A DNA stretch of 64,000 nt from Flavobacteriales bacterium (GTDB taxonomy: Bacteria > Bacteroidota > Bacteroidia > Flavobacteriales_D > Crocinitomicaceae), in the NCBI GenBank assembly GCA_947470515.1, contig CANITF010000013.1, positions 1 to 64,000 of the forward strand. Direction: 5' to 3'. Under the pieces are notes generated by a model. It had not been told where the DNA came from. It saw nothing but the letters and a program-made list of their open reading frames with translations, and made no database searches. A program made the translations under genes and the position numbers. The first letter of the stretch is position 1. Every line of letters begins with the position of its first letter. Below are positions 8,410 through 53,378 of this stretch, in pieces.

Positions 8410-8428
8410 AATAATTATTTGAATTGGA

Positions 8429-8907: not shown

Positions 8908-9171
8908 TTATTTCAACATATCTGCTACGTAAGGAAGTACAGCGATGTGACGAGCACGTTTAATCGCTTTGTTTACTTTCTTTTGGTATTTTGCAGTAGT
9001 TCCTGTGATACGACGAGGTAAGATTTTTCCTTGCTCGTTGATCAATTTCAATAAGAAATTAGGATCCTTATAGTCGATGAATCGTATTCCGCTTTTTGAA
9101 AAACGGCAATATTTATCTTTTCTGATTTCGATGTTAATCGGAGTCAAATAGCGAATATCGTTTTGTGCCAT
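8908..9171 (-). CDS. rpsR: 30S ribosomal protein S18
   Basis: 87 aa with the S18 core [25 protein letters not shown] and the basic tail [15 protein letters not shown]18 pairs with S6 on the small-subunit platform, and its gene lies directly after rpsF here, with 26 nt between them. Confidence 0.97.
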
Positions 9172-9197
9172 GATTTTACGTTTTTAAATGTTAATGA

Positions 9198-9557: not shown

Positions 9558-9594
9558 ACTTGAAATGTTTATGTTAATAAAAAATTTAAGGTTG

Positions 9595-9624
9595 CAAAAG
9601 TACAGTTTTTTTCTGATTAAGCAA
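9595..9624 (-). promoter_or_regulatory. Promoter of rpsF-rpsR-rplI
   Basis: On the minus strand TACTTTTG (9595-9602) is preceded, after 19 nt, by TTG (9622-9624). This fits the TTG-N17-23-TAnnTTTG pattern known from Flavobacterium. Confidence 0.6.
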
Positions 9625-9777
9625 GTATATAAAGAAAATTATCAGTGAAATTTATCTTTTTTTGATAATTACTGTTTCAATCTCCAAATTTCCAATTCAT
9701 TTTAAATAGATATTCCGTACAAAATTATTAAATTCGCACACGCAAAATTTTGATTTCAATAATTTCAAAAATACACT

Positions 9778-12042
9778 ATGGTTTACGATTTAGACATGAT
9801 TAAAAAAGTGTACGCCAAATTCCCCGAGCGCATTGAAGCTGCGCGTAAGGTAGTTGGTAGACCTTTAACCCTTTCAGAAAAAATTCTTTATGCTCACTTG
9901 TGGAATGGTAATGCAACTGCATCTTTCGAAAGAGGGAATTCTTATGTTGATTTTGCTCCAGACCGAGTAGCAATGCAAGATGCAACTGCCCAAATGGCCT
10001 TGTTGCAATTCATGCAAGCAGGTAAGAAAAAAGTGGCCGTTCCTTCAACGGTTCATGCCGATCACCTTATTCAAGCTAAACTTGGTGCAAGTAAAGATTT
10101 ACAAGAATCGCTAAATCAAAATAATGAAGTATTTAATTTCCTTTCCTCAATTTCTAATAAATATGGAATTGGATTTTGGAAGCCAGGAGCAGGGATCATT
10201 CACCAAGTAGTCTTGGAAAATTATGCTTTCCCAGGTGGATTGATGATTGGAACGGATTCACACACAGTAAATGCTGGTGGATTAGGAATGGTTGCAATTG
10301 GTGTCGGTGGAGCTGATGCAGTTGATGTAATGGCAGGTATGGCTTGGGAATTGAAATTTCCGAAATTGATTGGAATTAAATTAACTGGAAAACTAAACGG
10401 TTGGACTTCAGCGAAAGATGTAATTCTTAAAGTTGCTGATATTTTAACCGTAAAAGGTGGAACAGGTGCAATTGTTGAATATTTTGGTGATGGAGCCATT
10501 TCATTATCGTGCACAGGAAAAGGAACTATTTGTAATATGGGAGCTGAAATTGGAGCAACCACTTCAACTTTCGGTTACGATGATTCAATGAGAAGATATT
10601 TAGCGGCAACAGGTCGCCAAGACGTTGTTGATGCTGCTGATAAAATTGCTGATCACTTAACTGGTGATCCAGAAGTTTATGCAAATCCTACGGACTATTT
10701 TGATGAAGTAATTGAATTGAATCTTTCTGATTTAGAACCACATATTAACGGACCATTCACGCCAGACAGAGGAACACCTGTTTCTAAAATGAAGGCTGAA
10801 GCAATTGCAAATCAATGGCCTTTGAAAGTAGAGTGGGGACTAATTGGTTCTTGCACAAATTCTTCTTATGAAGATATGGCCAGAGCGGCTTCTATTGTTG
10901 AACAAGCCGTAGAACAAGGAATTGTTCCTAAAGCGGAATTTGGGATCAATCCAGGTTCTGAACAAGTTCGTTTTACGATTGAAAGAGATGGAATCATTGC
11001 TACGTTCGAGAAAATGGGTACAAAGGTATTTACAAATGCGTGTGGACCGTGTATCGGACAATGGGACCGTGATGGTGCTGAAAAACAAGAAAAAAATACA
11101 ATCATCCATTCGTTTAATAGAAACTTTTCGAAAAGAGCTGATGGTAATCCAAATACGCATGCTTTTGTTACATCACCAGAAATGGTTGCTGCAATTGCAA
11201 TAGCTGGTGATCTTGGTTTTAATCCGTTAACGGACACCTTGACAAATGCAAAAGGAGAGCAATTTAAATTTCAAGCACCAAAAGGTGATGAATTACCTAA
11301 AAAAGGATTTGCTGTGGATGATAATGGATATCAAGCGCCAGTTGAAGATGGAAGTGGAGTTGTTATTGCTGTGGCTGCTGATTCTTCTCGTTTACAATTG
11401 TTAGAAAATTTTCCAATTTGGGACGGTAAAAACATCATGGGTGCAAAATTATTGATCAAAGCAAAGGGAAAATGTACAACAGATCATATTTCGATGGCTG
11501 GTCCTTGGTTAAGATATAGAGGTCACTTAGATAATATCTCAAACAATATGCTAATTGGTGCCGAAAATGCATTTAACGGCAAAGCAAATGCTGTTGTCAA
11601 TCAATTGACGGGAAATTTAGGCGAAGTACCAGCAGTGCAAAGAGCTTACAAAGCAGCTGGTGTTCCTTCAATCGTGGTTGGAGATCACAATTATGGTGAA
11701 GGTTCATCACGTGAGCATGCTGCAATGGAACCACGTCATCTTGGCGTAATGGCTGTGATTGTAAAGTCTTTCGCTCGAATCCATGAAACAAATTTGAAAA
11801 AACAAGGAATGTTAGGTTTGACATTCGCTGTTGAAGCTGATTATGATAAAATTCAAGAAGATGATACATTCAACTTCATTGATTTAGAGTCATTCGCACC
11901 AGGAAAACAGTTGACATTGGAAATCGTTCACATTGATGGGTCGAAAGAAAATATCATGTTGAACCATACATATAATGAATCTCAAATTGAATGGTTCAAA
12001 GCAGGTTCGGCTTTGAATTTGATTAAGTTGATGGAGAATTAA
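9778..12042 (+). CDS. acn: Aconitate hydratase (mitochondrial type)
   Basis: 754-aa TCA-cycle enzyme converting citrate to isocitrate through cis-aconitate, using a 4Fe-4S cluster. The three cluster cysteines are visible: Cys359 in GSCTNS, and Cys422 and Cys425 in ACGPCIG. Other family motifs are [14 protein letters not shown] and, in the C-terminal swivel domain, [15 protein letters not shown]. Size and sequence fit the mitochondrial-type aconitase of Bacteroidota rather than the ~890-aa AcnA or the AcnB type. It stands alone between convergent and divergent neighbours. No strong TAnnTTTG promoter was found; TAAATTCG about 40 nt upstream is one base off. Confidence 0.95.
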
Positions 12043-12062
12043 AACACAAACTTATAAGCATA

Positions 12063-12100
12063 AAAAAATCCCATTCATCATTTGACGAATGGGATTTTTT
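12063..12100. terminator. Bidirectional terminator between acn and barrel protein
   Basis: Perfect 14-bp stem AAAAAATCCCATTC / GAATGGGATTTTTT with a 10-nt loop, placed between two convergent stop codons and U-rich in both directions. Confidence 0.92.
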
Positions 12101-12114
12101 GTAAATAGTTATAG

Positions 12115-12777
12115 TTAGAACTTAGCAGATAAACCGAATTGTAATAATCCACCACCAAAAGCACCTAATTCTATCATTGCACCAATATTATTAGTGAAAT
12201 AAATACGAGTCCCAATCGATAGTCTCAAAGCAACAGGTATTAACGCACCAGTTATACTTGCATCATTGGTTTCAGTATTCGTAATGGTATTGGTTTCTGT
12301 AGCTTCTCTTTTGACGTTTTTGTATCCACCTGCAAATCCAGCATAAACATCAACACGATCATTTTGTACAAAATGATAATTTAATCGCGCCATTACTCTT
12401 AGTTTCTTAGCGGAATAATTATAATTATAAGGTACTGTCGTTGTAGTAAATGTAACAGTATCATAGACTGAATTCAAATAATCATAATTAAATCCAGAAA
12501 CTTCATAGTTAATATCTACTCCTACACCAAAATTATCTGCAACCATATATTCTGCACGTCCTCCATATGAAAGCATACTGCCAACAACTTTATAGTTACT
12601 AACTGCAGTTGCAGAACTGTTTGAATTGTCATATTGGTTGTATAAAAGACTATTTGCCCAGTTTGGAACTCCAGCATATGCGTCAATAATAAAATTACCT
12701 TCTGTAACTGGCATTTGAGCGTTAACTCCTGAAATTGATAAAGCGATTGCTCCGATTAGTGTAAAGATTTTTTTCAT
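12115..12777 (-). CDS. Outer-membrane beta-barrel protein
   Basis: 220 aa with an N-terminal signal peptide (MKKIFTLIGAIALSISGVNA-QMP). The rest has alternating hydrophobic/aromatic strands separated by polar Asn/Ser/Thr-rich loops and ends in a C-terminal Phe (LLQFGLSAKF), a usual outer-membrane insertion signal. It resembles the small 8-stranded OmpA/OmpW-like barrels (OMP_b-brl families) common in Bacteroidota. Function unknown. Transcribed alone: a terminator follows, and the 231 bp upstream contains no gene. Confidence 0.75.
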   Translation of the reverse strand: MKKIFTLIGAIALSISGVNAQMPVTEGNFIIDAYAGVPNWANSLLYNQYDNSNSSATAVSNYKVVGSMLSYGGRAEYMVADNFGVGVDINYEVSGFNYDYLNSVYDTVTFTTTTVPYNYNYSAKKLRVMARLNYHFVQNDRVDVYAGFAGGYKNVKREATETNTITNTETNDASITGALIPVALRLSIGTRIYFTNNIGAMIELGAFGGGLLQFGLSAKF

Positions 12778-12960
12778 AATAAAAGTTTAAAGTTGAACAA
12801 ATTAACTGTTTTTATTCCACTACAACAAAACTCTTGCCAATTATTAATATTTGTTAATTTTTTTCAGAATTACAGGGAAATGAAGTCAGATCTTTCAAAT
12901 CAAATAATTTATCAGAATTGAAAATAGTTTAATTAAAAAGAATAAGTCTATCAGCGACTC

Positions 12961-12980
12961 GCACTGAGCTTGTCGAAGTG
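12961..12980. repeat. TGTCGAAG-family hairpin repeat
   Basis: GCACTGAGCTTGTCGAAGTG in the gap between mutS2 and the barrel gene, with CACT/AGTG arms around TGAGCTTGTCGA. It is related to the copies at 45-63, 15133-15150 and 59843-59883. The rest of the 12778-13008 gap shows no gene. Confidence 0.6.
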
Positions 12981-13008
12981 AGCGGTCTATGTTCTATACT
13001 CTATATTC

Positions 13009-15159
13009 TCACTTCACCCACATCAATTTTTCTCGTTCAACTTTCATTCGCAAGAATCCAAAAATTACAGTATGAATTTCACCATTAATGGATTCGACAG
13101 TTCCATTCTGTTTAGTAGAAATCAATTTGACGGTCGATCCTATTTGAATTTTATGACGTTGATGCGGATCTAATTCTGGTTTGATTATTTTTTTCTTTTG
13201 TGGCGATTTTAGATTTGCTTCAGCTTTTAGTTTCTCTACTAATTTTACATCTTCAATTTTTGATTTTTCGACTGCCAGATATTTGGTGAATTCTTCAATT
13301 AAACTTTTATTAGCATCCTTTTTACGTGTCTTAGTTTGATAACGAGCGATATAAGCTAACATTTTTTTGCCAGCATTTAAATATTTATTGTCGCGCTCTG
13401 TTGTTTCTAATTGTGTTTTCAATTTTTCCTCAAAACGACTTTTACGTTCTAAATACGTTTCTTTTGCTTCTAGCGCTAATTGCTGTGCTTCAATGTGTTC
13501 TTTATTCAAGCGTTCTAAATACGTTTTCTCTTTTTGTAATTCATTTAACAATTTATCCATCGAGACTTTTCGATCATCCAAGCGCGTTTTTGCTTCTTCA
13601 ATGAATGAAATCGGGATACCATTGATTTGTGCTACTTCAAATGTGAATGAACTTCCTGGCTGACCAATCGAAAATTTATAAAGTGGTTCTAATGTTTCTG
13701 TGTCAAACAACATACACCCATTAATCGCATTCTTCAATTGATCTGCTTTTAATTTAATGTTAGCATAGTGCGTTGTTATAACCCCAAAACTTTTTCGGTT
13801 GTAGAGTTCTTCAAAAAACACTTCTGCCAATGCGCCACCTAAATCAGGATCCGAACCAGTTCCAAATTCATCTAATAATAACAAGGTTCTTTTATTCGAA
13901 ACTTCCAGAAAATATTTCATACGTTTCAAGCGATAGGAATACGTACTCAATTCATTTTCGATGGATTGATTATCACCAATATCCGTCAATACCTGATTGA
14001 AAAAACACATTTTACTGTTTTCATTCACAGGAACTAACAAGCCAGATTGAAGCATTAATTGCAGCAATCCAATGGTTTTTAAAGTAATACTTTTTCCTCC
14101 TGCATTTGGACCAGAAATAACCAACATGCGTGAGAATTTATCCAAACTGATGAATTGAGGATGTGTTTTTTTACCTGCAATTTTATTCGCTTTCCATAGA
14201 ATAGGATGGAAGGCGTCGATTAGTTCTATTTGTGTTTCGGATTCAATTTTTGGTAAAACACATTGTAATTCAATGGCTAATCGTGTTTTAGAATTAACAA
14301 AATCTATTTCAGTTAATATCGTTTGATATGCTTTTATTAATGGATGAAAAACGGCTATTTCACGCGTTAGAACTTGCAGAATGCGATAAATTTCTTTGCG
14401 TTCGTCGTCGTGTAATAGTTCTAATTCATTGCTCAAAGCAATATTAACTTGCGGCTCTATGAATGTTAAACTGCCTGTTTTACTCGATCCTACAACAGAT
14501 CCTGAGATTTTTCTTTTATGTGATGATAAAATGGTCAAAACACGTCGGTCATTGACAAACGCTTCTTTTGTTTCACCTAATACATTCTCTTTTGCTAAAC
14601 GCCGCACTTCCTTATCGAAATTTCTGTTTATTTTAATTCGAACGGATTTAATGCTTTGCCGTATTTCATAGAGCAATTTGGAAGCATCATCTTTGATATT
14701 TCCAGTTTTATCAAAAACTTTTTCGACTGATTCAATAATTTCTTTTGTAAAATATGCGTTTGCAAAAAGAGAAGACAACACAGGGTATTCCTTTTCTCGT
14801 TTATCGAAGAAAATTAGAAGAGCATTCACCAATTCAGAAGCTTGAGCAATTCTTATACAGCCTTCTAAGGTTAAAACTGAATTCTTAATGGGTAACAATC
14901 GTAATTCAGTAGTTAATTCTTCAAAATCAAGCGCGGGAAAGGATTCTCCGTCATTTCTGATCGATAATAATTCGTTTACTTTTCGTAAATCTGTTTCAAT
15001 AGAAGGAAAATGATTGGATGGAACTAAAACCTCAAGTCGTTTTTTGGCTGTTGGACCAATAGCATATTCAACAAGCCATTCGCGAATGGTTGTAAATTCT
15101 AAATCATGAATTGTTTGCTCATCGAAATGCGCTGTATTGAGCTTGTCGAAAAGGTGCAT
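13009..15159 (-). CDS. mutS2: MutS2-family ATPase lacking the Smr domain
   Basis: 716-aa DNA-binding ATPase related to MutS. MutS2 proteins act on recombination intermediates or on collided ribosomes rather than in classical mismatch repair. The core shows Walker A SGPNAGGKSITLKTIGL, Walker B LLLLDEFGTGSDP and the STYSYRLKRM signature. A long coiled-coil (roughly residues 520-640, Glu/Lys-rich) follows. The C-terminus ends with a KOW-like GSTVKLISTKQNGTVESI segment, and no Smr endonuclease domain is present, so the protein is ~65-70 residues shorter than Bacillus-type MutS2. The ATG at 15159 is the only ATG available; codons 4-9 coincide with a dispersed repeat motif. Confidence 0.88.
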   Translation of the reverse strand: MHLFDKLNTAHFDEQTIHDLEFTTIREWLVEYAIGPTAKKRLEVLVPSNHFPSIETDLRKVNELLSIRNDGESFPALDFEELTTELRLLPIKNSVLTLEGCIRIAQASELVNALLIFFDKREKEYPVLSSLFANAYFTKEIIESVEKVFDKTGNIKDDASKLLYEIRQSIKSVRIKINRNFDKEVRRLAKENVLGETKEAFVNDRRVLTILSSHKRKISGSVVGSSKTGSLTFIEPQVNIALSNELELLHDDERKEIYRILQVLTREIAVFHPLIKAYQTILTEIDFVNSKTRLAIELQCVLPKIESETQIELIDAFHPILWKANKIAGKKTHPQFISLDKFSRMLVISGPNAGGKSITLKTIGLLQLMLQSGLLVPVNENSKMCFFNQVLTDIGDNQSIENELSTYSYRLKRMKYFLEVSNKRTLLLLDEFGTGSDPDLGGALAEVFFEELYNRKSFGVITTHYANIKLKADQLKNAINGCMLFDTETLEPLYKFSIGQPGSSFTFEVAQINGIPISFIEEAKTRLDDRKVSMDKLLNELQKEKTYLERLNKEHIEAQQLALEAKETYLERKSRFEEKLKTQLETTERDNKYLNAGKKMLAYIARYQTKTRKKDANKSLIEEFTKYLAVEKSKIEDVKLVEKLKAEANLKSPQKKKIIKPELDPHQRHKIQIGSTVKLISTKQNGTVESINGEIHTVIFGFLRMKVEREKLMWVK
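15133..15150. repeat. TGTCGAAG-family motif inside mutS2 5' end
   Basis: TGTATTGAGCTTGTCGAA matches the intergenic element at 12961 closely (TGAGCTTGTCGAA is identical). Read on the minus strand it encodes FDKLNT of the MutS2 N-terminus. The hairpin arms are not kept here. Confidence 0.4.
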
Positions 15160-15211
15160 GCCATAAAGGTAATTATTCCAAAATTATGACAATTAATTTC
15201 TCATTAAGATA

Positions 15212-15241
15212 TTGGGAATTCCTCTAACTTACTTAAGTTTG
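15212..15241 (+). promoter_or_regulatory. xth promoter
   Basis: TTG at 15212-15214, a 19-nt spacer and TAAGTTTG at 15234-15241; the box ends 16 nt before the xth ATG. Confidence 0.65.
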
Positions 15242-15257
15242 AAGAAAATATTAAGTA

Positions 15258-16019
15258 ATGAAAATAATCTCTTTTAATGTGAATGGAATTAGAGCTATCG
15301 TGCAAAAAAGTTTTGTAGCAGATATGCGACGTGTTAATGCGGATATTATTTGTCTACAAGAAACGAAGGCAACGGTAGATCAAGTAAAAGAAGCAGTTGC
15401 TGAATTGTCTGAATACCATGTTTTTGCGAATGAAGCGGAGAAAAAAGGATATTCAGGAACAGCAATTCTAACGAAACACAATCCAATTGCCGTAACGTAT
15501 AACATTGGCGTTGGAGATCATGATAATGAAGGAAGAGTTACGTGCGCTGAATTTGAAGCGTTTTTTGTGATTACTGTTTACGTTCCGAATTCTGGAAGCG
15601 AATTGTTGCGACTTCCTTATCGCCAAACATGGGACGAAGACTTCTTAAAATACATGAAACGATTGGAGCAAACAAAACCTGTGATTGTATGCGGTGATTT
15701 TAATGTTGCACACAAAGCAATTGATTTAGCGCGACCAAAGCAAAATTACAATAAGTCAGCTGGATACATGCAAGAAGAAATTACAGGAATGGATACATTT
15801 TCTGATAATGGATTGATTGATACTTTCAGAGCGCTAAATGGTGACGAAGTGAAATATTCTTGGTGGAGTTATAGAGGCGGGGCGAGAGATAAGAACGTGG
15901 GATGGAGAATAGATTATTTTCTCGTTTCGAGTGCTTTTTTACCAAGAGTTTCAGAATCCTTTATTTTAAATGATGTAAAAGGTTCAGACCATTGTCCGGT
16001 TGGGATAACAATTAGTTAA
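15258..16019 (+). CDS. xth: Exodeoxyribonuclease III
   Basis: 253-aa AP endonuclease/3'-5' exonuclease of the exonuclease III family, acting in base-excision repair. Family motifs are all present: MKIISFNVNGIRA with the metal-binding Asn, ICLQETKA with the catalytic Glu, CGDFNVAH, WRIDYFLVS and the terminal GSDHCPVGI with the catalytic Asp-His. Full length. Divergent from mutS2 with a 98-bp shared upstream region. Its stop codon lies in the first arm of a 42-bp direct repeat that flanks a 207-bp insertion, so the native terminator was probably pushed downstream. Confidence 0.95.
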   Translation: MKIISFNVNGIRAIVQKSFVADMRRVNADIICLQETKATVDQVKEAVAELSEYHVFANEAEKKGYSGTAILTKHNPIAVTYNIGVGDHDNEGRVTCAEFEAFFVITVYVPNSGSELLRLPYRQTWDEDFLKYMKRLEQTKPVIVCGDFNVAHKAIDLARPKQNYNKSAGYMQEEITGMDTFSDNGLIDTFRALNGDEVKYSWWSYRGGARDKNVGWRIDYFLVSSAFLPRVSESFILNDVKGSDHCPVGITIS

Positions 16020-16295
16020 ACGTCACAAAAAAACCGTTAGTCAAATTACCGCTCTGCGCTGCAGTTATACTGCTGCGTTCGTAAATCATTCAATTTATCA
16101 TCGTTCAAATCCACGCTGCGCTGCAGTTGCACTGCTGCGTTTGAAATTATTATTTATATGAATCATTGAAAATTATTATAGCACCGCAGTGCAGCAGAGC
16201 AATTGAATCGTAAAATGATCATAATACCGCAGTAAAACTGCAGTGTAGCAGTGATAACAATTAATTAAACGTCACAAAAAAAACCGTTAGCCAAA
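16004..16295. repeat. GCTGCAGT-rich insertion flanked by 42/43-bp direct repeats
   Basis: The stretch 16004-16045 (GATAACAATTAGTTAAACGT...) recurs at 16253-16295 with only a few differences. It carries the xth stop codon and the left half of a terminator. Between the copies, 207 bp hold four short palindromic blocks rich in GCAGT/ACTGC (around 16052-16080, 16114-16140, 16183-16198, 16227-16252); CTGCGCTGCAGTT occurs twice. No reading frame of interest is seen. This also describes the 311-bp gap between xth and the next gene. Confidence 0.7.
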
Positions 16296-43238: not shown

Positions 43239-43572
43239 AGCTTTATTTAAAAGCTCTAAGTTATAAAATGTTTAACTTTTTTAGTCGATATGGTTAAAAA
43301 CCTTTTCAGAATGTTAACAATTTTATAATATAGCTCGTTTTAAAATGTATTACTTTTGTCAACAGTTATTTCATGTCAACCTTGATGTCTAAGAATTTTA
43401 GTCTGAAACCATGAAAAAATGTAACACAGCGAAATGAAAAAATAATGTTTTCAGTTAATACAAGTGGTGATTGGGTAGTGACTTCAATTCAAATGGAAAA
43501 GTATTTTTCCCAACCCTTGTTATTATTATTTCGTTCTCAATTAGCAATTTTATTTAATTTAAACTAAATCGT
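43239..43572 (+). promoter_or_regulatory. 334-bp upstream region with promoter box and long leader
   Basis: TACTTTTG at 43351-43358 fits the TAnnTTTG box for the following operon; no clear -33 is seen. If used, it leaves an untranslated leader of about 210 nt. A 40-codon frame (43445-43567) ends 5 nt before the next ATG but shows no recognisable feature. I see no terminator or known riboswitch here. Confidence 0.4.
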
Positions 43573-44508
43573 ATGAAAAAAACGTTACTAATTATTAGTG
43601 CATTAACTTTTGGAGCAACTTTAGCTCAAGCACAAAATTGTTCTAAAATCTTTATTTCTGAATATGTTGAAGGATCAGGAAGTGATAAAGCTCTTGAATT
43701 GTATAATCCTACAAGCTCTCCAATTAACCTTGCCGGGTATAGTATCCAACGTTTTTCAAATGGAGACGCTACTAATGCTGGAGGAATATTGGATTTAACT
43801 GGTACAATTGCAGCACATTCAACATTTGTAATTGTTCATGGTTCAGGGATAACTTACACACCTACTGCGCAAGATCCTACTGTTTCTGCTGGTTTTATAG
43901 CTATGGCGACCTTAGAAGCAGATGCCTATGACCATGGTTACCCAAACCCAACGGCGATGAATGGTAATGATGCAATTGGATTATTCAACGGTGCCATAAT
44001 GATCGATTTAATGGGGAAAATTGGTGATGCTGGAATGGTTTCAGGTCAATCATGGAGTGACGCATTCCCTTATGATGGATCTGCGGGTGCTTGGTGGACA
44101 AAAGACCAAACATTGACAAGAAAATCTTCTGTTATGCAAGGTATTTCAATTAATCCAGATCCATTTATTGTTACTACTGAGTGGGATTCTTTGCCGAAAG
44201 ATACATGGACTGGTTTAGGTACTCACACGTGTGATTGTCCTCTTGGTTTAAATGAATATGTTTCAACTATTTCATTTGCAGTTTATCCAAATCCAAATTC
44301 AACTGGAACATTAATCGTTTCTTCTTCTGAGGAAATTGCATCAATTGAAGTGATTAATATGGTTGGACAAATAGTTTTGTCAACTGAGATTGCTGGGGCT
44401 ATTAAATCAACTTCAATTTCAACATTGAATCTAACAAAAGGAATGTACACTGTGAGATTACGATTCGCAAATAATTCTGTTGCACAATCGAATTTAAGTA
44501 TTCAATAA
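43573..44508 (+). CDS. Secreted lamin-tail-domain protein with T9SS sorting domain
   Basis: 311 aa. Signal peptide MKKTLLIISALTFGATLAQA-QNC. Residues ~22-205 form a lamin-tail (LTD) domain, beginning KIFISEYVEGSGSDKALELYNPT, a string very like the LTD at the front of large secreted DNases of the ExeM type. No nuclease domain follows; instead the last ~75 residues (YPNPNSTGTLIVSS onward) are a T9SS type-A sorting domain. First gene of a co-directional group with a TonB receptor, a secreted endonuclease and 5'-nucleotidase parts, so binding of DNA at the surface is a reasonable guess. Confidence 0.82.
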   Translation: MKKTLLIISALTFGATLAQAQNCSKIFISEYVEGSGSDKALELYNPTSSPINLAGYSIQRFSNGDATNAGGILDLTGTIAAHSTFVIVHGSGITYTPTAQDPTVSAGFIAMATLEADAYDHGYPNPTAMNGNDAIGLFNGAIMIDLMGKIGDAGMVSGQSWSDAFPYDGSAGAWWTKDQTLTRKSSVMQGISINPDPFIVTTEWDSLPKDTWTGLGTHTCDCPLGLNEYVSTISFAVYPNPNSTGTLIVSSSEEIASIEVINMVGQIVLSTEIAGAIKSTSISTLNLTKGMYTVRLRFANNSVAQSNLSIQ

Positions 44509-44542
44509 ATTGTAAATCTTCTGCTGAAGAATTCTTGATTTT

Positions 44543-47278
44543 ATGAGAAAGTCAATACTATCCATATTTGCTATTTTTGCGCTGACCATATTAAGTTATG
44601 GTCAGTCAAAGGTAGAATTGAGTGGAACTGTTATCGATAAAGAAACGGATGAAACCGTTGTTGGAGCAAAGGTTGTTTGTGATAATATTTTAATTATCAA
44701 AACAGATATAGATGGAAAGTATTTCTTTCAAGTTGATGCTGACAAAACGCATGAACTAAAAATCACATGTGTTGGTTTCGACACGTTAGTTTTAAGTGTT
44801 AAGGTAGGAAACCAATCTACTCTATTTGATGTTGTTCTGCCCAAATATGGAAAAGAAATAGATGAGGTTATTGTAAAAGCTGATGCAGCAAAAACGAGAG
44901 ACACTCCTATTGCTTTCTCAAAATTAACCGCGAAGCAAATTTCAGAAGATTTAGGAACAAGAGATTTACCAATGCTTTTGAACTCAACTCCAGGTGCTTA
45001 CGCAACTGAACAAGGTGGAGGGGCAGGAGATGCACGTGTTTCAATTCGTGGATTTGACCAGCGAAATATTGCCGTTTTAGTCGATGGTGTTCCTGTAAAC
45101 GACATGGAAAATGGTCAAGTTTATTGGAGCAACTGGGATGGTATAGGAGATATTACGCGTTACATGCAAGTACAGCGTGGTTTAGGAGCATCGAAATTAT
45201 CTATTGTTTCGGTAGGTGGTACAATGAATATTGTCACAAAAGGAATTGATGCCAAAATGGGTGCTTCCATAAAAAATGAAGTGAACTATTATGGATTGTA
45301 TAAAACGTCTTTTGGTTATAATACGGGATTGTTAAAAGGGAATTGGGGTGTTACTGTTGCAGGTTCTCGAAAATGGGGAACTAGTTTTGCAGACGCAACT
45401 TATGATGATGCATGGTCTTATTTCTTTAAAGTTCAAAAGAAATTTGATAAACATTTGATTAGCTTTGGAGTGAATGGAGCTCCTCAATCTCATGGTCAAC
45501 GAACAACGCGTTTACCCATTGCTGTTATAGATAAAGGTTTAGCTGAAAGAGCTGGGATCAATTATCAAGAATCATTAGATTCTATTAGTGCTTTAAGTAA
45601 CTCTCAATATACTTCGCCGTCTTTAGGTGCTAGAGGAATTCGATACAATCCAAATTCTGGTAGAATAAATGGTGAAATTTTTAATGAGAAAATTAATTAT
45701 TTCCATAAACCACAGTTTAATTTATCACATTCTTTTGATCCAAATGATAAAATCAATTTGACAACAGTTGCATATATGTCGATTGGTAAAGGCGGTGGAA
45801 CTGGATTGAAGAATCAGACATCTCGCGACACGTTGGATGGACTGATTAATATGCAGGATTTATTTACATTTAATTCTACGAATTTTGCGAATTTGTATAG
45901 CACTACTGAACATGTTTCAAGTAATTACATTCGTTCTTCAAATAACGATCACAAATGGTATGGATTGTTGTCAACATTAAATTACCGAATTAATAAACAA
46001 TGGTCTACTATGTTTGGCGTTGATGCGCGTTATTATAAAGGCTCCCATTATCAATCAGTATACGATTTATTAGGTGGTGATTATACTATCGATAATGTTG
46101 ATCAAAATCAACAAGCACCTACTCCAGGAAACACGTCCAATTCGATGAAACGAGTAGGTGATAAAGTTGCTTATTATAATGATGCAACCGTAAAATGGGG
46201 TGGTGTTTTTGGACAAGTTGAGTACAAAAAAGATAAATGGAGTACATTCATAACTGCTTCAATTAATGAAACGGGATATCAACGTATCGACTATTTTAAA
46301 AATAAAGATATTGTTTTAGATGATACAACGTTGATTCAAGCAGTTGGGTATGGAGATACAATTAATTATAATGGTATTGACTATACCAATAATTCCGCTG
46401 AAGCAAGATATGCAACAACAGATGAAAAATGGTTTATGGGTTCAACGATTAAAGCTGGAGCAAACTATAACATCGATAAGCATCACAATGTTTTCTTTAA
46501 TACGGGATATTTAAATATCGCTCCTAAAATGAATACTGTTTTTGATAATAATAATAGAGAATTATTAGATATTAAAAATCAAAAAGTAACGTCTGTTGAA
46601 TTGGGGTATGGTTTCAAAAGTAAGAGATTTTCTTCGAACATAAATGCTTATTATACACTTTGGGAAAATAAACCGCCTCAATTTACTGCAACAACTCCCG
46701 ATGGAGATTCATATAACATCAATGGATTGGATGCTTTGCATAAAGGGATTGAGCTAGATTTTATTTATAAGATTTTGCCAAATCTTGATTTTGAAGGTTT
46801 AGCTTCACTAGGTGATTGGAAAACCATTTCTTCAAGTTTCGCTACCATAATAGATCAAAATGGTGTTGTTTTAGATACTATCGACTTTAGTGCTATAAAT
46901 GTTCATGTTGGCGATGCCGCTCAATTACAAATAGGAGGTAGTTTGCGTTATGAAATTATAGAAGATTTATATTTAAAATTAAGATTCACCTATTTCGATA
47001 AAAATTATGCAAATTTCGATCCAACGGGATTGGTAGGAGTGAATAAGGACAGAGAATCATGGAAAATGCCAAGTTATAGTTTGTTAGATTTTAATTTTGG
47101 TTATGACTTTAAATTCTCAAAAAAATGTAAAGCCACAATTAGTGGTGGAATAATGAATATTTTGAATGCCGTCTATATTACAGATGCGCAAAATGGTGCA
47201 AGTTTCGACGCTTCTACTGCAACAGTCTTTGTTGGGATGGGTAGACGATTTAGTATGGGGCTTAAAGTTGGATTTTAA
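44543..47278 (+). CDS. TonB-dependent outer-membrane receptor
   Basis: 911 aa. Signal peptide (MRKSILSIFAIFALTILSYG-QSK), an N-terminal carboxypeptidase-regulatory-like domain (~22-105, ending DVVLPKYG), a plug domain (~115-235, with RVSIRGFDQRNIAVLVDGVPVNDMENGQVYWSNWDGI) and a 22-strand barrel ending in GLKVGF. No SusD gene follows. Its place between an LTD protein (34-nt gap) and a secreted endonuclease (25-nt gap) suggests uptake of nucleic-acid breakdown products or of a metal needed by these enzymes; the substrate is inference. Confidence 0.92.
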   Translation: MRKSILSIFAIFALTILSYGQSKVELSGTVIDKETDETVVGAKVVCDNILIIKTDIDGKYFFQVDADKTHELKITCVGFDTLVLSVKVGNQSTLFDVVLPKYGKEIDEVIVKADAAKTRDTPIAFSKLTAKQISEDLGTRDLPMLLNSTPGAYATEQGGGAGDARVSIRGFDQRNIAVLVDGVPVNDMENGQVYWSNWDGIGDITRYMQVQRGLGASKLSIVSVGGTMNIVTKGIDAKMGASIKNEVNYYGLYKTSFGYNTGLLKGNWGVTVAGSRKWGTSFADATYDDAWSYFFKVQKKFDKHLISFGVNGAPQSHGQRTTRLPIAVIDKGLAERAGINYQESLDSISALSNSQYTSPSLGARGIRYNPNSGRINGEIFNEKINYFHKPQFNLSHSFDPNDKINLTTVAYMSIGKGGGTGLKNQTSRDTLDGLINMQDLFTFNSTNFANLYSTTEHVSSNYIRSSNNDHKWYGLLSTLNYRINKQWSTMFGVDARYYKGSHYQSVYDLLGGDYTIDNVDQNQQAPTPGNTSNSMKRVGDKVAYYNDATVKWGGVFGQVEYKKDKWSTFITASINETGYQRIDYFKNKDIVLDDTTLIQAVGYGDTINYNGIDYTNNSAEARYATTDEKWFMGSTIKAGANYNIDKHHNVFFNTGYLNIAPKMNTVFDNNNRELLDIKNQKVTSVELGYGFKSKRFSSNINAYYTLWENKPPQFTATTPDGDSYNINGLDALHKGIELDFIYKILPNLDFEGLASLGDWKTISSSFATIIDQNGVVLDTIDFSAINVHVGDAAQLQIGGSLRYEIIEDLYLKLRFTYFDKNYANFDPTGLVGVNKDRESWKMPSYSLLDFNFGYDFKFSKKCKATISGGIMNILNAVYITDAQNGASFDASTATVFVGMGRRFSMGLKVGF

Positions 47279-47303
47279 CAATTAACAATTAACAAATAAA
47301 AAA

Positions 47304-49469
47304 ATGAAAAGAATTATTGGTTTATCATTACTGGCTTTGCTAGTGAATTTAGCGGTTAATGCTCAAGCAGTATTGCCAACGAACTGGAGTTTTACAACGG
47401 TAAATTTACCTACAGGTTGGACAGAATCAGGAACAATGTTTTATTCTGCCTCAGGTAACACACCTCCAGCAATGAAATTTGATAATACGGGAGATTACTT
47501 GACAATTAATTTTAATAGTAATCCAGGAAATTTGACATATTACCTAGCAGGAAATGGTTTCTCTGGTGGAACATTTACTGTTGAGGAATCTGATTTAGGC
47601 ACAGCTTGGACAACATTACATACGCATACTACTCCGCCTGATGCTGTATATGCATTGTTCACTGATGTCCCTCAAATTACAACACGTTTTATTCGTTTTA
47701 AATACACAAATAAAGTTGCTGGAAATATTGGTTTAGATGACGTGGATATTGTTGTTGCTCCTCCTGGACCAGCACAAGAGATAAATGTGAAGCAAGGTGC
47801 AACAACAATTGTCTCTGGCGGTACATATTTAGTAAATTCAGCTGTTGCAACAATGACACCGACAACTTTTACAGTTGAGAATTTAGGATTGGTTAACACC
47901 TTGAATGTTGCTTCTGCAACTCTTTCTGGAACAAATGCTGCTGATTTTTCTGTTGCTTCTTTTCCTGCAACTGTAGCTTTTACATCTACAGGAAATTTAG
48001 TATTGAACTTCACTCCAACAGCTTCAGGAACAAGAAATGCTGTTCTTACAATTGCAAGTAATGATGTTGACGAAGCATCGTATGTTATTAATTTATATGG
48101 AGTAGGTGGAGCTTTAGCTACTGAACCATCTGCTCAAGCAACGAATTTGAGTTTTTCGAATGTGAAGACATATCGTCTAACGGCTTCTTTTACGCCTGCT
48201 GCTTCAGTTGAGGGTTATATCGTTTTAAGAAAGAAAGCATCTGCAATTACAGGAGTTCCTGCTGATGGTGTAGTTTACCAAAGAGGTGACAACGTTGGTG
48301 ATGCACAAGTTGTTTTTAGTGGAACGGCAACAAGCTTTTCACCAAATAACATTATAGCATCTACAGGTTACTATTTTGCAGTTTATACGTTTAATGGTCC
48401 TAGTATTTTTAGAAATTATAATACGACTGCACCGTTAACTGGAAATGTTTCAACTCCAGCTACAATGATGCCTCCAACTATGTATAATGGTATCAATTCT
48501 TCAAGTGCTTCGTTTGTTGCTGATTTACATGCTTTGGTTAATCCACATCAAATGCAATTCTATAGCAGTTATACAAACTTCATGATTAACTTGTTTGAGG
48601 CACGTGATACTACTTTGGATAGAAGAGTAATTACATGTGTTTATAGTGGTGAGAATAAAATCTATACTGAACCTTTTGATTTTACAACAAATGGTTACAG
48701 TCGTGAGCATACTTATTGCCACAGTTGGATGCCAACAAATCCAGCACAAGCTTTACCAGAATACAATGATTATCACCATTTATTCCCTACAAGACTTGAC
48801 TCTGCTAACATCGTAAGAAGCAATTATCCTTTAGGTGTTGTTGTAAATGTTACTTCAACATTTTTAGGCGCTAAATATGGTACAAATGCGAATGGTCAAA
48901 CAGTTTATGAACCAAGAGATGAACACAAAGGCGACGCTGCAAGAGCGATGATGTATGAAGCGATTTGCTATACAACTGTTAGTGGAAATAGCTGGGCATT
49001 GCCAAGTAATATTAGTTCTTCTATTCCTTATGGTCAAGATCAAGCAATTTTGAAGCAATGGCATTTCCAAGATGCACCAGATGCATGGGAAATTTCAAGA
49101 AATGATTTTATTGATTCAGTGCAAAATAATAGAAATCCATTTGTTGATAGTGTTGATTTTGTATGCTTCGTAAATTTCAGTAATATGACTTACGAGCCTT
49201 TAGGATGTATCGCTGCAATTGAAGAAATTTTAAATGCTGGATTTATTGTTTATCCAAATCCTGCAAAAAATGAATTGACATTGCATGTTGATGCAACATC
49301 AATTACTTCTTATGAGATAATTGACATTCAAGGACGCGTTGTGTTGTCTGCTGAAAATTTGAACTTAATTGGTGTTAAAGTCAATACGTCAAATTTAAAA
49401 TCAGGAGCATATATCGTAAAAGCAATAACTCCTTATGGTGTAGCTCAAAAATCTTTGATTATCGAGTAA
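47304..49469 (+). CDS. T9SS-secreted endonuclease I family nuclease
   Basis: 721 aa. Signal peptide MKRIIGLSLLALLVNLAVNA-QAV. Residues ~22-150 are a beta-rich carbohydrate-binding-like module, ~155-270 a choice-of-anchor-D-like domain (NVKQGATTIVSGGTY to INLYGVGG), and ~280-385 a fibronectin-like part. The endonuclease I domain spans ~390-620, with SREHTYCHSW (His469) and DYHHLFPT (His491/His492), the expected metal/catalytic pattern of Vvn/EndA nucleases. The C-terminal ~75 residues (VYPNPAKNELTLHV onward) are a T9SS type-A domain. Probably degrades DNA or RNA outside the cell. A short 7-bp tandem repeat precedes the ATG. Confidence 0.9.
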   Translation: MKRIIGLSLLALLVNLAVNAQAVLPTNWSFTTVNLPTGWTESGTMFYSASGNTPPAMKFDNTGDYLTINFNSNPGNLTYYLAGNGFSGGTFTVEESDLGTAWTTLHTHTTPPDAVYALFTDVPQITTRFIRFKYTNKVAGNIGLDDVDIVVAPPGPAQEINVKQGATTIVSGGTYLVNSAVATMTPTTFTVENLGLVNTLNVASATLSGTNAADFSVASFPATVAFTSTGNLVLNFTPTASGTRNAVLTIASNDVDEASYVINLYGVGGALATEPSAQATNLSFSNVKTYRLTASFTPAASVEGYIVLRKKASAITGVPADGVVYQRGDNVGDAQVVFSGTATSFSPNNIIASTGYYFAVYTFNGPSIFRNYNTTAPLTGNVSTPATMMPPTMYNGINSSSASFVADLHALVNPHQMQFYSSYTNFMINLFEARDTTLDRRVITCVYSGENKIYTEPFDFTTNGYSREHTYCHSWMPTNPAQALPEYNDYHHLFPTRLDSANIVRSNYPLGVVVNVTSTFLGAKYGTNANGQTVYEPRDEHKGDAARAMMYEAICYTTVSGNSWALPSNISSSIPYGQDQAILKQWHFQDAPDAWEISRNDFIDSVQNNRNPFVDSVDFVCFVNFSNMTYEPLGCIAAIEEILNAGFIVYPNPAKNELTLHVDATSITSYEIIDIQGRVVLSAENLNLIGVKVNTSNLKSGAYIVKAITPYGVAQKSLIIE

Positions 49470-49470
49470 A

Positions 49471-50178
49471 ATGATTTTTAAATTAGTTAGTATATTTTTC
49501 ATTGGAGCAGGTCTTTGGGCCTGCTCTTCTGTTAATACAGTAGTTGTTCATTCAAGTGCTGTAAGCGTGAATAATGAGCAAAAAACGAATGCGCATGTCG
49601 ATAGTATTATCATGCCATACAAAGATTCGTTGAGCCTTGAAATGAATGAAGTAATTGCAAATGCCACAACGAATTTTTCAGTAAAAAGACCGAATTCAAA
49701 TCTCGGAAATTGGGTGGCTGACGGAATCTTCGTCAATCAAACAAAAACGGTACGTTTAACAAAACCAATTATCTGTTTATTGAATAGTGGTGGAATACGA
49801 TCAACAATCAATAAAGGGCCTGTCACAATTGGCGATATGTTTAAATTAATGCCATTTGATAATGAAATAGTTTGGGTTGAATTACCTGTTTCTGTAATTC
49901 CCGAAATTGAAGAATATCTTAAAAAGTCAGGTGGAGAACCAATTTCAAATGCCATATTGAAAAATGGAAAACTTATTTTTAATAATTGGAATGAAAATTC
50001 AAGTTCATTTTGGGTAATTACATCCGATTATCTAATGAATGGTGGAGATAAAATGAATTTTTTCGCAAAGAAACTAAGCATAAATAAAACAGGAACACTG
50101 ATGAGAGATGCCTTAATAACCGAAGCAAGATTTCAGCGTGTTATTGAAGAAGATACAACCATTCGAATTTCCTTTTAA
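49471..50178 (+). CDS. 5'-nucleotidase C-terminal-domain lipoprotein
   Basis: 235 aa. Lipoprotein signal MIFKLVSIFFIGAGLWAC. The mature part is only the C-terminal substrate-binding domain of the UshA/5'-nucleotidase family: NSNLGNWVADGI, LLNSGGIRSTINKGPVTIGDMFKLMPFDNEIVWVEL and TSDYLMNGGDKM. The catalytic metallophosphatase domain is absent and is encoded by the next gene. Starts 1 nt after the nuclease stop and ends 1 nt before the next start, so translation of all three is probably coupled. Confidence 0.9.
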   Translation: MIFKLVSIFFIGAGLWACSSVNTVVVHSSAVSVNNEQKTNAHVDSIIMPYKDSLSLEMNEVIANATTNFSVKRPNSNLGNWVADGIFVNQTKTVRLTKPIICLLNSGGIRSTINKGPVTIGDMFKLMPFDNEIVWVELPVSVIPEIEEYLKKSGGEPISNAILKNGKLIFNNWNENSSSFWVITSDYLMNGGDKMNFFAKKLSINKTGTLMRDALITEARFQRVIEEDTTIRISF

Positions 50179-50179
50179 T

Positions 50180-51082
50180 ATGAAAAGAAGAGAGTTTGTC
50201 CAAAATACTTTTTTAGTCACTGGTGGAATTTTAATTGCTGGCAATGCGTTGGCATTTGAGGGGAAAAAGAAGGCACCTAAACTGACTATTTTACATACTA
50301 ACGATACACATTCTAATATTGATCCTTTTCCATCAAATCACGCTAAGTTTCCAAATATGGGAGGCGTATCTAAGCGTTTTGAATTAATTCAAAAAATCCG
50401 AGAAGAAGAAGAACATGTATTAGTACTTGATGCTGGAGATATTTTTCAAGGAACACCTTATTTTAATAAATTTGGTGGTGTACTTGAAATGAAATTAATG
50501 ACTGCCATGGGATATGATGCTGCTACCATGGGAAATCATGATTTTGACGGCGGAATGGACGGTTTTTTAAAAGCGCAGAAATTTGCTGATTTTCCATTTT
50601 TGTGCGCAAATTATGATTTTTCTGAAACGATCTTAAAAGATGTTACTCAGGCTAATGTTATCATTAAAAAAGGAAAAATTAAAGTCGGTATTTTTGGAAT
50701 TGGGGTTGAATTACAGGGCTTAGTGCCTGATGATAAATTTGGTAAAACAAGCTATTTAGACCCTATAAAAACAGCAAATGAACAAGCAAATATCCTTAAG
50801 AAAAAAGGTTGTGATTTAATTATTTGCCTCTCCCATTTGGGTTTTGAATATGATACAGATAAAGTATCCGATCGACTATTGGCTCAAAAAACAAAAAACA
50901 TTCATTTAATACTCGGTGGGCACACGCATACATTTTTAGAAAAACCAGTTGAAGAGAAGAATTTAGAAGGTCAAATTGTTCTTGTTAATCAAGTAGGGTG
51001 GGGCGGAGTTCAACTTGGAAAGTTAGAGTTTGAATTCGATAAAGCATTTTTAGCAAAAAAAGATGCCATTATTGTGAAATAA
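50180..51082 (+). CDS. 5'-nucleotidase/metallophosphatase catalytic subunit
   Basis: 300 aa. The N-terminus MKRREFVQNTFLVTGGILIAGNALA carries a twin-arginine (RREF) pattern and a hydrophobic stretch, a likely Tat signal. The calcineurin-like catalytic domain has LTILHTNDTHSN, LDAGDIFQGTP, MGNHDFDGG, CLSHLGFEYD and LILGGHTHTF, covering all metal ligands. It lacks the UshA C-terminal domain, which is the preceding gene. The open frame extends 14 codons upstream into that gene, but ATG 50180 gives the signal peptide. Expected to dephosphorylate nucleoside 5'-monophosphates. Confidence 0.92.
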   Translation: MKRREFVQNTFLVTGGILIAGNALAFEGKKKAPKLTILHTNDTHSNIDPFPSNHAKFPNMGGVSKRFELIQKIREEEEHVLVLDAGDIFQGTPYFNKFGGVLEMKLMTAMGYDAATMGNHDFDGGMDGFLKAQKFADFPFLCANYDFSETILKDVTQANVIIKKGKIKVGIFGIGVELQGLVPDDKFGKTSYLDPIKTANEQANILKKKGCDLIICLSHLGFEYDTDKVSDRLLAQKTKNIHLILGGHTHTFLEKPVEEKNLEGQIVLVNQVGWGGVQLGKLEFEFDKAFLAKKDAIIVK

Positions 51083-51132
51083 AAACCTAACTTTTACATT
51101 ATAGTAAACGTTGATTAACTTAAAATCAAATT

Positions 51133-51849
51133 ATGAGAAACATATTCACTACAATTTATTTTTTAGGGTTTGTTCTTTCTGCTTTTGCCCAAGAAGAGAA
51201 AATTATCGTTATAGACCGAGGAACTGGCAAAACGTATAAAGAGAAAAGAGAAAGAATCCTTGTAGATAGTAAATCAGTAATGAAGTACAGCCCACTGCAA
51301 ATGGTTGTTGGCGAAATTAATTTTGGATACGAAAGAAAAATTGATGAGCTATCAAGTGTTGAATTTGAATTCGGTCCGACGTTATCGAATATTGGTTTGA
51401 CCGTTACAGACAACCATTACAATGATCCATTTGGCGGCAGCTATGTCGAGGAAACGAGTAAATTAGGATTCTTTGGTTCGGTGGGTTATAGATTTTACCC
51501 GATGGATAATGGAAAAGTATTAAATGGTTTTTATGTGTCACCCGTTTTGAAATACCGTTTAATGAATTTTGGAATTCACGATTATTCTGAAAATTTGGAT
51601 GATACAAAAGGAAGTGAAAATCACATGTATTTTACATTCAACTTTGGAGTGCAACGTTGGTTATCTCAAAATTTCTCGTTGGATATGTTTGGAGGTATAG
51701 GTCTAGGTTACGAATCTCATATGCGCTTTAATACTGCAGCAACTTATGATGGCAATACCGGAATCTATTCCTATTACTGGGATAGAAAATCATTTGATGG
51801 CGTAAGATTTGTTTTTACAGGAGGCGTTAAAATTGGAATTGGACGTTGA
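51133..51849 (+). CDS. Outer-membrane beta-barrel protein (DUF3575-like)
   Basis: 238 aa. Signal peptide MRNIFTTIYFLGFVLSAFA-QEE, a charged segment, then PLQMVVGEINFGYERKIDELSSVEFEFGPT, a pattern like DUF3575 outer-membrane proteins, and further strands with aromatic ends (GSVGYRFYP, GLGYESHMRF) ending GVKIGIGR. Function unknown. Last gene before a terminator; the 50-nt gap from the metallophosphatase has TAACTTTT, one base off the promoter box, so it may be co-transcribed or separate. Confidence 0.68.
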   Translation: MRNIFTTIYFLGFVLSAFAQEEKIIVIDRGTGKTYKEKRERILVDSKSVMKYSPLQMVVGEINFGYERKIDELSSVEFEFGPTLSNIGLTVTDNHYNDPFGGSYVEETSKLGFFGSVGYRFYPMDNGKVLNGFYVSPVLKYRLMNFGIHDYSENLDDTKGSENHMYFTFNFGVQRWLSQNFSLDMFGGIGLGYESHMRFNTAATYDGNTGIYSYYWDRKSFDGVRFVFTGGVKIGIGR

Positions 51850-51869: not shown

Positions 51870-51989
51870 GTTGCAAATTACAAGTTATTAGCTGCAAAAA
51901 AAAGCCAAGTTCAATTAGAACGAGGCTTTTTTAGTTATTAGCAACTAGCAACTAGCAACTAGCAACTAGCAATTTGCAACTAGCAACTA
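51870..51989. repeat. GTTGC-family arm plus 7-bp tandem GCAACTA array
   Basis: 51870-51895 matches the 26-nt arm of the palindrome at 21486-21584 at 22 positions. After a terminator hairpin, 51941-51989 contains seven 7-bp units, six GCAACTA and one GCAATTT. The last unit supplies the TAG stop codon of lpdA on the minus strand. Confidence 0.7.
51898..51932. terminator. Bidirectional terminator between barrel gene and lpdA
   Basis: Stem AAAAAAGCC / GGCTTTTTT with a 17-nt loop between convergent genes. Confidence 0.85.
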
Positions 51990-53378
51990 TAAGTGGATTA
52001 CTTCACCATATGCCGCCGCTGCAGCTTCCATAATCGCTTCCGACATAGTTGGGTGCGGGTGAACAGTTTTGATGATATCGTGTCCAGTTGTTTCCAATTT
52101 ACGAATAGATACAATTTCAGCAATCATTTCAGTTACATTTGCTCCAATCATGTGAGCTCCTAATAACTCTCCGTATTTAGCTCCAAAGATTAATTTTACA
52201 AATCCATCTTTTACACCCGCAGCACTTGCTTTTCCAGATGCTGAAAATGGGAATTTACCAACTTTAATTTCTAAACCTGCTTCTTTCGCTGCTTTTTCAG
52301 TCATGCCGACAGATGAGATTTCAGGTGAACAATAGGTACAACCTGGGATGTTTCCATAATCTAATGGCTCTGGTGAATGTCCAGCAATTTTCTCAACACA
52401 AATAATTCCTTCCGCTGAAGCAACGTGAGCCAAAGCTGGTGTTGGAATAACATCTCCAATTGCATAAACTCCTGGGATATTTGTTTGGTAAAAATCATTT
52501 ACTAAAATTCTACCTTTATCTACAACGATTCCAACTTCTTCTAATCCTAAATTCTCAATATTTGCTTGAATTCCAACTGCTGAAAGAACAACATCACATT
52601 CAATTTTCTCTTCTCCTTTTGCTGTTTTAACAGTTACAACACATCCTTTTCCTTTCGTGTCAACTGATTCAACTGAAGCATTCGTCATTACAGTAATTCC
52701 CATTTTCTTGAATGATTTTTCTAATTGCTTAGAAACTTCTTCATCTTCAATAGGAACAATGTTTGGTAAATATTCAACAACAGTAACTTCTGTCCCAATT
52801 GCTTTATAGAAATAGGCAAATTCAACACCGATTGCTCCTGAACCAACAACAACAATTTTCTTTGGTTGAGATTTCAAGGTCATTGCTTGACGGTATCCGA
52901 TAATTTTTTCTCCATCTTGTGGAAGATTTGGCAATTCACGCGAACGTGCACCAGTCGAAATGATAACTCCTTTGTCAGCAGAATATTCTGTAACAACTCC
53001 ATCTTCACCCGTAACAGATACATTTTTTCCAGCTTTTACAATAGCATTTCCTTTGATCACGTCAATTTTATTCTTTTTCATCAAGAATTGAATTCCTGCA
53101 CTCATACCATTTGCAACACCACGACTGCGATCAACCATTGCAGTAAAATCAACATTCGCTTCCTTTACGGTGATACCATAATCACTTGCATGCGTCAAAT
53201 ACTCAAATACATTTGCACTCTTTAACAATGCTTTTGTTGGAATACATCCCCAATTCAAGCAAATCCCGCCCAATTCTTCACGCTCAATAATAGCTGTTTT
53301 TAAACCTAACTGAGATGCACGAATGGCTGCAACGTATCCCCCAGGACCACTACCGATAACTATAATGTCGTAATTCAT
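51987..53378 (-). CDS. lpdA: Dihydrolipoyl dehydrogenase (E3)
   Basis: 463-aa flavoprotein that reoxidises lipoamide in 2-oxo-acid dehydrogenase complexes. FAD motif VIGSGPGGYVAAIRA at the start, redox disulfide Cys40/Cys45 in GGICLNWGCIPTK, NAD-binding VVVGSGAIGVEFAYFY, and the C-terminal HPHPTMSE with catalytic His442/Glu447. The E1 and E2 genes are not nearby. The stop codon lies in a tandem repeat. Confidence 0.97.
   Translation of the reverse strand: MNYDIIVIGSGPGGYVAAIRASQLGLKTAIIEREELGGICLNWGCIPTKALLKSANVFEYLTHASDYGITVKEANVDFTAMVDRSRGVANGMSAGIQFLMKKNKIDVIKGNAIVKAGKNVSVTGEDGVVTEYSADKGVIISTGARSRELPNLPQDGEKIIGYRQAMTLKSQPKKIVVVGSGAIGVEFAYFYKAIGTEVTVVEYLPNIVPIEDEEVSKQLEKSFKKMGITVMTNASVESVDTKGKGCVVTVKTAKGEEKIECDVVLSAVGIQANIENLGLEEVGIVVDKGRILVNDFYQTNIPGVYAIGDVIPTPALAHVASAEGIICVEKIAGHSPEPLDYGNIPGCTYCSPEISSVGMTEKAAKEAGLEIKVGKFPFSASGKASAAGVKDGFVKLIFGAKYGELLGAHMIGANVTEMIAEIVSIRKLETTGHDIIKTVHPHPTMSEAIMEAAAAAYGEVIHL

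Follow-up and report, generated by a model that had tools for sequence, protein, structure and literature searches.

A lamin-tail protein and TonB-dependent receptor pair with exchangeable nucleases: a candidate outer-membrane DNA importer in Flavobacteriales

A six-gene locus from a Flavobacteriales genome probably specifies a TonB-powered system that brings DNA or fragments of it across the outer membrane, complete with a surface partner and processing enzymes, a reading to which we give a probability of roughly 60%. The core of the locus is a lamin-tail-domain (LTD) protein paired with a TonB-dependent receptor (TBDR), accompanied by an exchangeable nuclease. This LTD module is best read as an alternative outer-membrane DNA importer, which may serve feeding, transformation or both; DNA as the substrate, the direction of transport, the contact between LTD protein and receptor and the order of the steps are what we infer for it.

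Results

The locus and its genes

The window, by which we mean the whole stretch of DNA analysed, comprises 64,000 nt of a Flavobacteriales bacterium (Crocinitomicaceae; positions 1 to 64,000 of contig CANITF010000013.1 in the 2.99 Mb assembly GCA_947470515.1), and the labels of its named close relatives include Crocinitomicaceae, among others. Six open reading frames, all on the + strand, occupy 43573-51849 with intergenic gaps of 34, 25, 1, 1 and 50 nt; they lie where the initial annotation had placed them, and its family assignments for genes 1-5 were borne out by Pfam (LTD with T9SS tail, CarbopepD_reg_2 with Plug, Endonuclease_1 with T9SS tail, 5_nucleotid_C, and Metallophos).

43351..43358, + strand: -7-like promoter element TACTTTTG, weakly resembling the TAnnTTTG of Bacteroidota
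43573..44508, + strand: gene 1, LTD protein, 311 aa (PF00932, E 2.1e-17; Por_Secre_tail, E 1.1e-9)
44543..47278, + strand: gene 2, TBDR, 911 aa (PF13715, PF07715)
47304..49469, + strand: gene 3, endonuclease I (EndI), 721 aa (PF04231, E 1.6e-27; Por_Secre_tail, E 1.5e-11)
49471..50178, + strand: gene 4, 5'-nucleotidase C-terminal domain (NTC), 235 aa (PF02872, E 6.7e-17)
50180..51082, + strand: gene 5, 5'-nucleotidase N-terminal metallophosphatase domain (NTN) (PF00149, E 7e-20)
51133..51849, + strand: gene 6, putative exported barrel-like protein, 238 aa (no family match)

A terminator scan of the + strand found no terminator-like site between the six genes: its two matches, at 44767 and 47907, are both intragenic, in agreement with the earlier claim that intergenic terminators are absent. 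The TACTTTTG element lies in the 334-nt gap 5' of gene 1 and lacks a suitably spaced TTG -33 element; it is weak evidence for a promoter because the + strand of the window has 43 occurrences of the TAnnTTTG-type -7 element. At 51893-51990, 3' of gene 6, AAAAAAGCC...GGCTTTTTT could pair as a terminator with a nested hairpin, a site absent from the scan output; on its 3' side comes a short stretch of CAACTAG-type units repeated in tandem.

The LTD protein consists of a signal peptide, the Ig-like fold of the lamin-tail domain and a T9SS type A sorting tail. Its similarity to the N-terminal region of the ExeM nuclease (NF033680, E 1.7e-22) upholds the proposal that it represents a stand-alone piece of a secreted DNase; fold searches with its AlphaFold2 model (pLDDT 87) recovered nothing beyond the T9SS tail and Ig-like folds in general. 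The core of the protein is acidic, with a pI of about 4.3, and so is the DUF5689 partner of the alternative module described below; neither would be expected to be drawn to DNA by charge alone, and DNA binding by the LTD protein, which had been proposed as the opening step of a DNA-scavenging path, is unsupported, as is any role for it as a positively charged DNA binder. Elsewhere in the same genome (G000), LTD domains occur in several larger reading frames of 757-1342 aa on contigs C11, C17, C25, C29 and C42 (L002-L008).

The receptor has a CarbopepD_reg_2 domain, a plug (PF07715, E 7.1e-14) and a beta-barrel. Its AlphaFold2 model (pLDDT 86) adopts the TonB-receptor fold, with a TM-score, by query length, of 0.59 to both PqqU and FhuA, and structure searches matched this general fold only, the nearest structures being siderophore, PQQ and other receptors. 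All NCBIfam receptor families scored far under cut-off (best 47.9 bits against 323.75) and the receptor falls into a clade of its own (below); identification as a known siderophore receptor is unsupported. A SusD-family partner is absent, the partner gene being the one that encodes the LTD and T9SS tail.

EndI is predicted to be secreted and combines the nuclease domain with a choice-of-anchor D-like Ig region and a T9SS tail. The motifs read from its sequence, REH...NDYHHLFP...NIVRSN, agree with Endonuclease_1 and with the REH and N..R.N signatures of EndA/Vvn; the usual endonuclease I motif has HNL where this protein has HHL. No relative of EndI was found in a sequence search of the PDB. NTC is the 5_nucleotid_C substrate-binding domain as a separate predicted lipoprotein (lipobox LWAC), and NTN resembles the 5'-nucleotidase 2z1a (E 2.6e-36) and contains all of the metal motifs (HTNDTH, DAGD, GNHDFD, LSHLG and GGHTHT). 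The start of NTN was assigned to the conserved ATG at 50180, giving the twin-arginine signal MKRREFVQN, in place of the GTG at 50138 given in the list of reading frames. With both domains and the metal motifs present, NTC and NTN together are a predicted 5'-nucleotidase of the UshA/NadN type, split over two genes. Neither Pfam nor NCBIfam families matched gene 6.

Conservation of the gene order

A match to the TBDR was found in 97 of 150 genomes of the window's family (f1). Conserved gene order was looked for among these relatives and it held: genes 1-5 are in the same order in 30 of the 31 untruncated family loci, over receptor identities from 93% down to 41%, the exception (L075) being a locus without the nucleotidase genes. 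Gene 6 was found in 10 of the 37 fetched family loci, about a third, and the unit is therefore five genes plus an accessory; of the six-gene operon originally proposed, genes 1-5 stand and the optional barrel gene falls outside, so the six-gene unit was dropped.

A dipeptidyl-peptidase-like gene and a citrate synthase gene, flanking the locus upstream, are also conserved within the family, and gene order within the family is for that reason weak evidence alone. Stronger evidence comes from other families and orders: the LTD gene is the immediate upstream neighbor of the TBDR gene in 74 of the 80 named loci, distributed over Flavobacteriales, Bacteroidales and Saprospiraceae, and the two stay together without the peptidase and citrate synthase genes, which rules out general synteny as a full explanation. 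All loci in which the NTC-NTN pair was seen have flanks of the f1 type as well.

Two nuclease families in one position

The gene after the receptor, as classified by motif in the 80 named loci, encodes EndI in 34 and a double-HKD phospholipase D-type (PLD) protein in 26; no gene lay within reach in 11, mostly at contig ends, and the remaining nine were other or truncated. Pfam confirmed Endonuclease_1 and PLDc_2 in the examples scanned, both with T9SS tails, and a DUF5689 domain was N-terminal in both kinds of nuclease; the same domain occurs in the lipoprotein of the alternative module. EndI and PLD, to judge from their domains, are two unrelated families of predicted secreted nucleases filling the same slot. 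L104 encodes an EndI-LTD fusion, its LTD match (E 1.3e-5) lying under the family cut-off.

These observations bear on the possibility that the LTD-TBDR pair imports some other cargo, such as a metal, a cofactor or a phosphorylated or organic ligand, and that nuclease and nucleotidase are neighbours by history. The siderophore and PQQ receptors among its nearest solved folds, and the general conservation of gene order in the region, would fit such a history; yet it would leave unaccounted for the recurrence, across several families and orders, of two unrelated nuclease families in the slot behind the receptor, the fusion of one nuclease to an LTD domain, and the separation of the receptor from other TBDRs of the same genomes in the phylogenetic tree, and we consider it improbable. 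The nucleic-acid theme of the initial annotation gains from the conserved cluster and from the two nuclease families, while as a theme of DNA overall it is only partly supported.

The LTD protein and receptor behave as a pair

Comparison of the window with the closely related genome G074 showed mostly 86-95% DNA identity on both sides of the LTD and TBDR genes, a fall to 59-84% over these two genes only (about 43600-47300) and a rise again at EndI; the nearest relatives switch between the pair and its flanks in line with this drop. LTD and TBDR are exchanged as one cassette between close relatives. Across 26 loci, the distances of LTD and TBDR were correlated with a partial r of 0.95 given two flanking genes, those of either with EndI at 0.73-0.78, and those of the adjacent NTC and NTN at only 0.26. 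From the exchange and the correlations it follows that LTD and TBDR move and evolve as a pair, with EndI partly along, and that the nucleotidase follows the species.

Allele exchange limited to exposed proteins is typical of phage surface targets, and its confinement here to two exposed proteins could mean that LTD and receptor co-vary because diversifying selection acts on them as an attachment site for phages or bacteriocins, the exchange then being silent on cargo. Such selection would account for the exchange, but neither for the nuclease linkage nor for the replacement by the DUF5689 module described below, and as the explanation of the locus we hold it to be very improbable; it is compatible with DNA import, and both may hold together.

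A DUF5689 module that matches a Riemerella transformation pair

In a transposon screen of Riemerella anatipestifer, RA0C_RS04915 and RA0C_RS04920 were essential for natural transformation (PMC8459023). RA0C_RS04915 is an outer membrane protein with pfam13620 and RA0C_RS04920 has DUF5689 and DUF5017; they form one operon in that order, and insertions in RS04915 are polar on RS04920 (PMC8459023). Mutants of tonBA and tonBB likewise showed lower transformation, the effect of tonBB perhaps acting via iron (PMC8383284).

Genomes of the window's order contain a module in which a TBDR of about 850 aa is accompanied by a DUF5689 lipoprotein and a choice-of-anchor J protein of the T9SS type, with a divergent gene for an EEP nuclease (PF19580) beside the module. 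The receptors of this module in families f33, f44 and f65 carry PF13620, and one f33 receptor has PF13620 as its top domain match and gives no plug match, in keeping with how RS04915 was annotated in the publication. On published domains and gene order, the DUF5689 module matches RS04915/RS04920. Two other candidates were set aside. A small CarboxypepD protein, encoded close to loci such as L306 and L312, is in the wrong position to be RS04915, since RS04915 is directly upstream of the DUF5689 gene, a place held by the receptor in the loci examined, and since it is the receptors that carry PF13620. The Riemerella lipoprotein M949_1556 was not equated with RS04920, its family NF052645 matching the DUF5689 partner at 166 bits, well under the cut-off of 475.

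The window's own genome gave no DUF5689 match, and no relative of the RS04915-like receptor was found in a sequence search of the PDB. The T9SS proteins of the DUF5689 module hold an ExeM/NucH-like region in two loci (L310, 10225-11568; L217, 4433-5803), and the parts of the ExeM nuclease (LTD, ExeM/NucH-like region and EEP nuclease) are found as separate genes across the LTD and DUF5689 modules.

The receptors of the two modules are related to each other. Their profiles match reciprocally at 135-219 bits, and other TBDRs score below 50 bits, the exceptions with the LTD-type profile being L290 (159 bits) and L303 (108 bits). In a quick tree with some long branches, in which the RS04915-like receptors come from the genomes sampled here and none from Riemerella, the LTD-type and RS04915-like receptors each form a clade (SH-aLRT 100 for both) and are sister groups rather than one clade; intermediate paralogs join them in a single group set apart from 17 other TBDRs (SH-aLRT 99). 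Clustering with siderophore or metal receptors, the outcome that would have spoken against a nucleic-acid role, was looked for and not seen, the TBDR lying in its own clade. The intermediate receptor paralogs (L246, L247, L252-L255) score 560-700 bits with the LTD-type profile and are mostly without a standalone LTD gene.

The two modules replace each other at the same locus

Within one genus (g36), genome G162 has LTD-TBDR-EndI (L312) at the place taken by the DUF5689 module in G184 and G223 (L306, L307), between flanks that are 86-97% identical. In the window's own family, the order in G049 (L310) runs from citrate synthase and peptidase through two nuclease genes and the DUF5689 module to NTC-NTN, that is, the layout of the window with the module swapped and the flanks and NTC-NTN retained. 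Judged by gene type, G240 and G157 of family f9 (L313 and L308) show the same swap. What is interchangeable is the place; this is not proof of interchangeable function.

Among 150 order-mates, the LTD type was found in 89 genomes and the DUF5689 type in 43; no genome had both, and 18 had neither. Among 345 class-mates the raw counts were 87 and 76 with one overlap (G280), in which the LTD match is a different protein of 1135 aa; the real counts are 86 and 76, with an overlap of 0/345. The p-values calculated from these counts take no account of kinship among the genomes; better evidence of non-coexistence comes from the families f1, f3, f4, f9 and f10, at least five in all, which contain both types, in different genomes. 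A Bacteroidales contig (L133) carries the LTD and DUF5689 modules side by side, and the two are therefore not strict alternatives everywhere; its layout at 4366-16273 is LTD-TBDR-PLD, a divergent EEP-type gene, then an RS04915-like receptor with a downstream gene of 419 aa.

ComEC is present in the window's own genome and in five others covering both module types (6/6). So is the DUF1343/NamZ family; DUF1343 is a further gene from the Riemerella screen (PMC8459023). A type IV pilus or T2SS ATPase (T2SSE, PilT/GspE family) was not found above cut-off in the same six genomes.

The enzymes of the locus would also suit pure nutrient scavenging along the lines of the initial annotation, in which the nuclease makes oligonucleotides, the receptor imports them and the 5'-nucleotidase dephosphorylates them, with no part in transformation. 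A secreted EndI or PLD nuclease is encoded in the operon, the split 5'-nucleotidase also occurs beside the DUF5689 module in f1, and extracellular nucleases with periplasmic nucleotidases are described as the DNA-feeding kit of marine Bacteroidota (PMC8289736). Scavenging nonetheless leaves unexplained why a module matching a transformation-essential one is replaced in the same place and never together with it, and the 5'-nucleotidase genes are no part of the module outside the window's family; we regard scavenging as the whole explanation as unlikely, if the most serious of the alternatives.

Discussion

A model for DNA import

In the importer that we favor, the LTD protein would be exported by the type 9 secretion system and sit on the cell surface as the partner of the receptor; the secreted endonuclease would cut or trim DNA at the surface, and the receptor would pass DNA or oligonucleotides to the periplasm. 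In the window's family, the split 5'-nucleotidase, with a Tat-exported catalytic domain and a lipoprotein substrate-binding domain, would then remove phosphate, making nucleosides and free phosphate available for entry into the cell. The relation to the Riemerella-matching receptor pair opens a role in transformation beside feeding: if LTD-TBDR-nuclease is an alternative form of the module required for Riemerella transformation, imported DNA may also feed ComEC-dependent transformation.

Some points count against DNA import. A secreted nuclease beside a transformation receptor would be odd unless it served trimming or feeding, the LTD protein is acidic, and the predicted structure of the receptor matches only the general TonB fold. 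More tentatively, and with somewhat less than even odds, pilus-less Bacteroidota in general may take up DNA via a dedicated family of TBDRs, with interchangeable LTD and DUF5689 forms, for both feeding and transformation.

We know of no settled answer to how DNA passes the outer membrane in Bacteroidota that lack type IV pili. The Riemerella screen offered one candidate pair and a speculative model for this passage (PMC8459023); a second, different-looking module with built-in nucleases is now tied to that pair via same-locus replacement and non-coexistence. If the importer is real, DNA would be added to the substrate range of TonB receptors, and feeding on DNA would share one entry gate with gene exchange. 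Named strains carry the module, for example Brumimicrobium oceani C305 (L122), which makes DNA import by a TonB receptor testable.

Comparison with known systems

A literature search for LTD together with EndI and TonB found nothing, and the locus is best compared with four systems that share parts of it. Like RS04915/RS04920 (PMC8459023), it has a TonB-type receptor and a surface or secreted partner in one operon; the receptors of the matching modules are sister to the LTD type and occupy the same chromosomal place in related genomes, and DUF5689 recurs in the nucleases beside the LTD pair. In the RS04915/RS04920-type module, however, the partner is a DUF5689 and DUF5017 lipoprotein 3' of the receptor, whereas here it is a T9SS LTD protein 5' of it; the next gene there encodes a choice-of-anchor J/OB T9SS protein rather than a nuclease, and the EEP nuclease (PF19580) is divergent beside the module.

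With the ExeM/NucH nucleases (Shewanella ExeM, PMC6085458) the link is the match of the LTD protein to the N-terminal part of ExeM, together with the ExeM/NucH-type region in the T9SS protein of the alternative module and the EEP nuclease beside that module; in contrast to those nucleases, the proteins here are separate, the nuclease is EndI or PLD and there is a dedicated receptor. The DNA-degradation loci of Ca. Izemoplasmatales (PMC8289736) likewise cluster LTD, nuclease and nucleotide-processing genes, but in organisms with no outer membrane or TonB receptor and with LTD and nuclease in one protein. The SusCD/RagAB nutrient importers of Bacteroidota, finally, likewise combine a TonB receptor with a co-inherited surface partner that is dedicated to it and encoded next to it; the partner here is a T9SS-exported, Ig-like LTD protein in place of a SusD-family lipoprotein.
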